From contig MHJU01000014.1 in NCBI GenBank assembly GCA_001818155.1, positions 1 to 37,777 on the forward strand: a DNA stretch of 37,777 nt, written 5' to 3'. The DNA is from Candidatus Jacksonbacteria bacterium RIFCSPLOWO2_02_FULL_44_20. Its GTDB lineage: Bacteria > Patescibacteriota > Patescibacteriia > UBA9629. How positions within the stretch are numbered: the stretch's first letter is position 1; the number at the start of each line of letters is the position of its first letter. This document shows positions 15,939 to 19,814 of the stretch, in pieces. A program made the position numbers and the translations under genes. The notes beneath the pieces are model-generated. The model searched no databases. It was not told the DNA's origin and saw only the letters and a program-made list of their open reading frames with translations.

Positions 15939-16634
15939 TTAGTCCGCAAATTCTGTAACCGTCTCCGACAACACAGCAACTCGCCCCTGTGCGTATAAAA
16001 ATTCTTGCGCGAATGAGAGCGCTTCTTTACACCCGTTCTCTGCTAGCTCATCACTCTCGGAAAACAAATCCTCGCACACTAAAATGGCGCGAGTGGTTGA
16101 TTTTTCTAACTTTGTCCGATCTGCCTCCCGCCAGTTCCAGCGGCGGCATAATACGCCCGCATCATCCTTATAGACAATCTCACCCTGCTTTGGCGGACGA
16201 TTTTCGGACTCCCCAATTAAAACGCACGGCTCGTCGCCGAGCGCATATCCTAAAACAATATCACCTTCCACGCGCGACAAATCCTCGCCGCCAAAAGGGA
16301 TAAAATATTTTAACGAAAGCGCGTTGTAAAGGTTTACAAGCGGGTTAATGTCCGGAAGCGCGTCGCCTTTTATGGCGCGGCGAAGTAACGCTTCAACAGA
16401 ACTGCGATAATCGTTCGCGCTAAAAGATTTATACGCGCGACGCCAGCAGACGATTTGCGGCATCTCTCCTAATGCGCTTGCGCCGTATTTTTCTCCCGCC
16501 TCGCGCTCGCATAAACGCAACAATTTCAAAATTTCAGCTCCCGCTCCCGCGTTATCCGCGCCTTCAACCACAACCACGCCAACGCGAAGCTCCGGGAATT
16601 GTTCAAAAAGTTTTGGATCAACAGTTAAACGCAT
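15939..16634 (-). CDS. B3/4 tRNA-binding/editing-domain protein (PheT-like B3/4 fold)
   Basis: A 231-residue protein of the family related to the B3/B4 editing module of phenylalanyl-tRNA synthetase beta chain. The C-terminal two thirds carry the hallmarks: DINPLVNLYNALSLKYFIPF followed by GGEDLSRVEGDI, then PPKQGEIVYKDDAGVLCRRW and NWREADRTKLEKSTTRAILV. Such free-standing proteins are thought to act on aminoacyl-tRNA or free amino acids, but the substrate is not established to my knowledge. The ATG at 16634 (MRLTVDP) is preferred over a GTG at 16691, which adds an unconserved extension. There is no Shine-Dalgarno site. Its position between argH and the HTH-repeat/argS pair suggests a link to Arg-tRNA. 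Confidence 0.78.
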   Translation of the reverse strand: MRLTVDPKLFEQFPELRVGVVVVEGADNAGAGAEILKLLRLCEREAGEKYGASALGEMPQIVCWRRAYKSFSANDYRSSVEALLRRAIKGDALPDINPLVNLYNALSLKYFIPFGGEDLSRVEGDIVLGYALGDEPCVLIGESENRPPKQGEIVYKDDAGVLCRRWNWREADRTKLEKSTTRAILVCEDLFSESDELAENGCKEALSFAQEFLYAQGRVAVLSETVTEFAD

Positions 16635-16710
16635 AACAATAAATACTATACTACAACTTTTGGCTTTTGGACAATGAATAACGGCGCTCACTTAAACTTG
16701 TTTACGGCCA

Positions 16711-19462: not shown

Positions 19463-19516
19463 AAAAAAACTCCCATCCGCTCAACATCAAAAAATCTGAT
19501 GTTGAAAGGACGAGAG
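19463..19516 (-). terminator. Regulated intrinsic terminator of the T-box
   Basis: Two stacked helices, CTCTCGTCC with GGATGGGAG and CAACATCA with TGATGTTG, are separated by small internal loops and followed by seven T. The 5' arm overlaps the 3' half of the antiterminator (CCTTTC), so the two folds exclude each other. Confidence 0.93.
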
Positions 19517-19740
19517 TTCTCGTGGTACCACCTTTCTTCGCGTGCGCATTTCCTCACACACGCCTTATGAGCGCTTTATCAAAAATAGACAACACGCTCT
19601 GCCGCTTGATTACGGACGGCTCTCCGATCCGCGATTTTCCCGCGGACATCTCCTCGAAGGCGCGTTCGGTTACATTTTAGCGCCGCGCTTCCACCGCCCG
19701 CGGCTCTCTTAAAGCTAAAATCCATAACCTACTTCTCCTT
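19463..19740 (-). promoter_or_regulatory. T-box leader, predicted tRNA-Arg sensor with CGC specifier
   Basis: A full transcription-attenuating T-box. Stem I: CGAAGG pairs with CCTTCG, enclosing an internal loop with AGTA (19730-19733) opposite GAA-CGC-G; then GGTTA/TAACC, TTTTAGC/GCTAAAA and a distal GCCGCG/CGCGGC arm with AGAGAGC and GGTGGAAG. By the usual rule (GAA, then codon, then purine) the specifier is CGC at 19662-19664, an Arg codon. The T-box sequence GGTGGTACCACG is at 19521-19532; its UGGU bulge would pair with an ACCA tRNA end. The antiterminator GAAAGG/CCTTTC competes with a terminator at 19463-19516 (CTCTCGTCC/GGATGGGAG and CAACATCA/TGATGTTG, then seven T). Downstream argG and argH agree with arginine sensing. 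Confidence 0.95.
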
Positions 19741-19785
19741 CGGGTATAAACGATTTTATAGTTTTCAAAACTTAACTTTGAAAAA

Positions 19786-19814
19786 ACGATAACTTTTTTT
19801 ATATTTTTTGTCAA
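19786..19814 (-). promoter_or_regulatory. Sigma70-type promoter of the T-box/argGH transcript
   Basis: A consensus TTGACA (19809-19814) and a TATCGT -10 (19786-19791) are exactly 17 bases apart on the minus strand, in very A/T-rich DNA. The start would be near 19779, about 40 bases before Stem I of the T-box. Confidence 0.8.

Follow-up and report, generated by a model that had tools for sequence, protein, structure and literature searches.

A predicted tRNA-Arg-sensing T-box leader upstream of argG and argH in a Jacksonbacteria genome

The leader and the gene run behind it

The window analysed here, the whole stretch of 37,777 nucleotides from Candidatus Jacksonbacteria bacterium RIFCSPLOWO2_02_FULL_44_20, carries on its minus strand a T-box leader followed by a run of arginine genes. 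The search with cmscan against Rfam 15 matched the leader (19749-19503) to RF00230 over the complete model (1-219) with 97.8 bits, the gathering cut-off of the family being 93 bits, and the covariance-model search found it to be the single T-box of the 1.07 Mb assembly. A promoter-like sequence, TTGACA-17-TATCGT, with 10/12 matches in the consensus scan, lies at 19814-19786. Stem I (19742-19655) was assigned from the Rfam alignment, the fold and compensatory changes relative to the leader of a related genome, and it contains an AGUA/GAA specifier loop and an AGAGA/GGUG T-loop pair. In the specifier loop, AGTA (19733-19730) stands opposite GAA (19667-19665), both being enclosed by a CGAAGG/CCTTCG helix; AGAGA (19709-19705) and GGTG (19695-19692) are aligned by Rfam as the interdigitated T-loops of the elbow-binding motif. 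The specifier loop is one base short of the Rfam consensus, and an equal 4-base spacing was found in other CPR T-boxes. Stem II (19648-19627), whose pairs are present in the fold, and Stem III (19563-19540) were both placed by the Rfam alignment and the fold, and the alignment also gave the antiterminator (19535-19505) with a UGGU bulge at 19530-19527. The T-box core sequence of the leader is AAAGGTGGTACCACG.

Because the consensus scan for terminators misses the leader's own terminator, probably owing to an interior loop, fold energies were chosen for this element and gave an intrinsic terminator at 19518-19463 that ends in seven T. The strand CTCTCGTCC is common to the terminator and to the forced antiterminator, with energies of -37.1 and -20.7 kcal/mol, respectively, and the two structures are predicted to be mutually exclusive. 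The leader folded better than 100/100 shuffled sequences (z = -6.3). The complete T-box announced in a preliminary description of this DNA, with its promoter, AGTA/GAA Stem I, CGC triplet, T-box core and mutually exclusive terminator, was recovered in all its parts, and 19749-19503 is confirmed, as judged from the sequence, as a complete transcriptional T-box leader.

The genes behind the leader are all on the minus strand. A small ORF of 59 codons (59 aa; 19430-19251), without any Pfam or NCBIfam match, lies between the leader and argG; AGGAGG, a good ribosome-binding site, stands 5' of it, and of its tandem ATGs the first encodes only MQWH before a stop. It is followed by argG, coding for argininosuccinate synthase (19201-17948; NCBIfam NF001770, 513.6 bits), and argH, coding for argininosuccinate lyase (17943-16711; TIGR00838, 308.5 bits). 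The next gene (16634-15939) codes for a CtdA-like standalone B3/4 editing protein (PF03483, 80.8 bits; PDB 9f7e, E = 1.6e-26), and its start is most likely the ATG at 16634 rather than the GTG at 16691. A gene for an HTH-repeat protein (15908-14205; several Pfam HTH models) sits between the B3/4 gene and argS, which codes for arginyl-tRNA synthetase (14195-12360; TIGR00456, 463.7 bits).

Specifier triplet and conservation of the leader

According to TBDB, the specifier is the second to fourth base 5' of the bulge end (PMC7778990), and this rule, applied to the bulge end of the leader, gave the Arg codon CGC (19664-19662), in the standard frame. The base right after it is a purine, G, with the CGAAGG/CCTTCG helix next. 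A total of 49 tRNA genes were detected in the assembly. One of them, tRNA-Arg(GCG), complements this triplet exactly, and its discriminator A73 pairs with the U of UGGU. In ten other CPR arginine-gene T-boxes the triplet in this frame is likewise an Arg codon: CGC before argG (L004, L012), argS (L163) and argF (L148), CGA before argG (L197) and AGA before argG (L166), argH (L221) and argS (L177, L178, L184), the specifiers of short or weak leaders, such as L012 and L197, being taken from the Rfam alignments. The bulge sequence of L178 and L184 is UGGC, in keeping with G73 of their tRNA-Arg. Every CPR arginine-gene T-box with a legible specifier, other lineages included, showed an Arg codon.

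The closest argG (80%) was found in Candidatus Jacksonbacteria RIFOXYB2_FULL_44_15, which is of the same family as the window genome. The locus of this relative reads T-box (105.7 bits)-argG-argH-argS-glmU-like-tsaB-mraZ-mraW, with a promoter TTGACA-17-TATATT (11/12) immediately 5' of the T-box; the small ORF, the B3/4 gene and the HTH gene are all absent from it. Its leader has the same specifier, CGC. The two leaders are 67% identical and, among the predicted pairs, 10 were changed on both sides, 11 on one side, 16 were broken and 9 gapped. The two-sided changes indicate selection on pairing. The sensing of tRNA-Arg proposed in the preliminary description is thus borne out, in so far as sequence can tell, by the CGC specifier, the tRNA-Arg(GCG) with its fitting discriminator and the conservation in the relative, and the published frame gives the same codon.

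T-boxes in other CPR genomes

Earlier descriptions have T-boxes abounding in Firmicutes alone (PMC2494555), with low numbers in some other phyla. The search of the open-access literature gave no published account of CPR T-boxes. Counted at E <= 0.001 per genome, T-boxes were present in 127/380 sampled genomes of the phylum, about one third, and in 35/95 relatives; 5 of 14 control genomes were positive (Bacillus subtilis, Lactococcus, Corynebacterium, Thermus and Deinobacterium). The premise of the preliminary description that T-boxes are rare in CPR was dropped on this count. In one genome from the same order as the window's, a trp gene run and proB are preceded by T-boxes, the gene names being given by eye from translations. 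The presence of T-boxes in about one third of the sampled CPR genomes alters their known distribution and may bear on the age of the switch.

The short CPR T-boxes (L009-L227) seem to have a mini Stem I whose apical loop displays the specifier, with the apical codons Ile AUC, Asp GAC, Thr ACC, Val GUC, Trp UGG and Arg CGC. Of 34 short T-boxes whose synthetase or amino-acid target is known, 19 carried the cognate codon within the loop of their best early hairpin, compared to 8.9 expected from permuted labels, of which 0/10,000 reached as high. Terminator-like hairpins followed 44/46 short and 68/70 long T-boxes and 133/351 control positions; since the test is lenient and 38% of control positions pass it, these numbers mean enrichment only. 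Known apical-loop T-boxes are described as mostly translational (PMC7583486).

We found also a tRNA-Tyr(GUA) gene directly behind the T-box in L179 (+47), L224 (+42) and L136 (+62). The specifier of L179 is the Tyr codon TAC. In L179 and L224 the tRNA-Tyr follows the T run of the terminator by only a few bases, so that transcription continuing past the T-box should yield the tRNA itself; these two T-boxes may regulate the very tRNA gene whose product they sense. The mini Stem I class and these tRNA-Tyr loci are put forward as leads beside the main reading. In L177, L178 and L184 a T-box (AGA) is followed by tRNA-Arg(UCU), (GCG) and (UCG) and then by ArgRS. A conserved TATAAT stands before this array; because it permits an own promoter, we dropped the view that these tRNA-Arg arrays are necessarily T-box-controlled and advance only the two Tyr cases, L179 and L224. 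Many T-boxes with the Tyr codon TAC were also seen before non-synthetase genes, including AstE/AspA-like ones and members of uncharacterized families (L132, L134, L162, L164, L167, L182), and T-boxes before nucleoside-phosphorylase-like genes (L006, L007). CPR bacteria are thought to retain little regulation. We regard as evenly balanced the proposal that they own a broad T-box regulon, with a mini-hairpin terminating class, own-tRNA-gene targets and one tRNA-Arg-sensing leader for argGH, B3/4 and argS.

In the argG tree, the window sequence and that of the Jacksonbacteria relative are sisters (support 100) and six T-box-linked argGs fall within one 14-row clade (support 99), but those of L166 and L197 are divergent and lie outside it. 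The T-box label needed 4 changes on the tree compared to 5.8 for shuffled labels, 5/500 shuffles being as low. Such a grouping is consistent with a T-box-arg cassette that was inherited or transferred within CPR; as the T-box-linked arg loci differ in order, with the T-box before argF, argH or argG, repeated recruitment of the T-box to arg genes is also possible. The earlier suggestion that the leader was gained with the arginine genes agrees with the shared clade, but less well with the phylum-wide T-boxes and the different gene orders.

Alternative readings, proposed mechanism and known systems

The genome also encodes a tRNA-Ala(CGC) with discriminator A, and the tRNA set alone would allow the leader to sense tRNA-Ala through the shifted (+1) triplet GCG. 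This is very improbable, since it would take a non-standard frame, the genes that follow the leader are arginine genes throughout, and the AGA and CGA triplets of other CPR arginine T-boxes, when shifted, give no Ala triplet. The alanine specifier was dropped in view of the arginine genes downstream and of the in-frame CGC, CGA and AGA of the other CPR leaders. Just as remote is a decayed leader that has lost its switching: nothing direct speaks for it, the one point in its favour being the single T-box of the genome; against it, the recognition elements are all intact and the compensatory changes point to selection on pairing.

The leader being read as an arginine T-box, argG and argH are supported as its targets, and argS is likely to be under the same leader. 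In the intergenic gaps of the run up to argS the consensus scan detected no terminator; the gaps are of 4 nt between argG and argH, 76 nt between argH and the B3/4 gene (ATG 16634), then 30 and 9 nt. The gene order is conserved across genera, with T-box-argH-argG-argS in another CPR lineage (L063) and argH-argG-argS also in a WWE3 genome (L038), where a T-box was not found. The T-box might instead govern only the small ORF, argG and argH, with the B3/4 gene, the HTH gene and argS transcribed from their own promoter: a promoter-like TTGTCC-18-TATAGT (9/12) lies at 16674-16645 in the 76-nt gap, 5' of the likely B3/4 start, and the relative has another 11/12 promoter-like site, within argH and upstream of argS. 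Such sites are no commoner than in shuffled sequence (20 in the region versus 15.1 in shuffles, sd 4.1), and together with the terminator-free gaps and the conserved order this makes the separate promoter doubtful. The coupling of argS to the leader in the preliminary description thus keeps its gene order and its terminator-free gaps, but has a weak promoter-like site set against it; of the strong promoter and the terminator whose presence between argG and argS would, according to that description, speak against the coupling, only this weak site was found. As to origin, a recent acquisition of the T-box together with argGH from Firmicutes would agree with the 99%-supported clade of 14 that holds the T-box-linked argGs, bar L166 and L197. 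We consider it improbable, as the clade consists of CPR lineages, T-boxes are found throughout the phylum and at other genes in the same order, and there is no Firmicutes argG among the 61 loci, in a scan that finds close relatives only.

Our main reading, to which we give a probability of roughly 0.87, is that the leader is a class I transcription-attenuating T-box riboswitch that would switch on argG-argH, and probably also the CtdA-like gene, the HTH gene and argS, upon arginine shortage. Transcription by RNA polymerase would begin near 19780, and tRNA-Arg(GCG) would be captured by Stem I through CGC:GCG pairing and stacking on its elbow. With uncharged tRNA, the ACCA end would pair with UGGU, the antiterminator would be held and transcription would continue; with arginine-charged tRNA, the terminator 19518-19463 would form. 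Because uncharged tRNA would hold the antiterminator and charged tRNA would permit the terminator, arginine shortage should turn on argG-argH and with them the path from citrulline to arginine. The CtdA-like editor, the HTH protein and argS are probably on the same message, with the transcript extent deduced from the gene arrangement. The assembly has an aspartate carbamoyltransferase; ornithine carbamoyltransferase and arginine deiminase, two citrulline sources, were sought in the assembly and not found, and citrulline is therefore probably imported from outside. CPR cells have genomes of about 1 Mb and obtain many metabolites from others; a read-out of charging would match arginine synthesis and ArgRS supply to uptake without a protein regulator. 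These bacteria are hardly cultivable, and the leader offers a testable entry to their gene regulation.

The window B3/4 protein matches CtdA (PDB 9f7e) over residues 6-191. CtdA is a canavanyl-tRNA-Arg deacylase (PMC10018355). Other CPR genomes encode ArgRS proteins with an N-terminal B3/4 fusion, or have a B3/4 gene that overlaps argS, and the B3/4-ArgRS fusions of L178 and L184 lie behind Arg T-boxes. The linkage to argS and these fusions support a CtdA homologue with a putative Arg role. Because of the CtdA match and of the fusions and overlaps, two of them behind Arg T-boxes, the window gene run is best read as a putative set for synthesis, proofreading and charging of Arg-tRNA; CPR arginine loci would thereby link a CtdA-type proofreading domain to ArgRS via operon and gene fusion. 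Among L240-L262, from different CPR genomes, a B3/4 domain was seen fused to ArgRS, TyrRS, class II LysRS and class I LysRS.

The two proteins are alike in being standalone B3/4 proteins of about 230 aa, but the window gene lies by argS in a T-box-led run, whereas known CtdA genes are under guanidine riboswitches or beside canavanine catabolism (PMC10018355). The leader itself shares with the Firmicutes class I T-boxes (RF00230) the AGUA/GAA Stem I, the elbow T-loops, Stem III, the UGGN bulge and the choice between terminator and antiterminator; it differs from them in its CPR host, in a specifier loop one base shorter and in the possible small ORF before argG. TBDB includes arginine specifiers (PMC7778990), and a T-box-regulated argS is known from Bacillus cereus (PMC2494555). 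With such arginine T-boxes the window has in common an Arg specifier and amino-acid and synthetase targets, but it unites synthesis genes, a CtdA-like editor and argS in one run. The ultrashort Stem I T-boxes of Actinobacteria (PMC7583486) have an apical-loop specifier like the short CPR T-boxes, but they act mostly at translation and have ileS as their best-known target, whereas the short CPR ones precede terminators and concern many amino acids; the window T-box is of the long type, unlike either. It belongs to a known RNA family, and it is its phylum context that is new with respect to the open-access literature.
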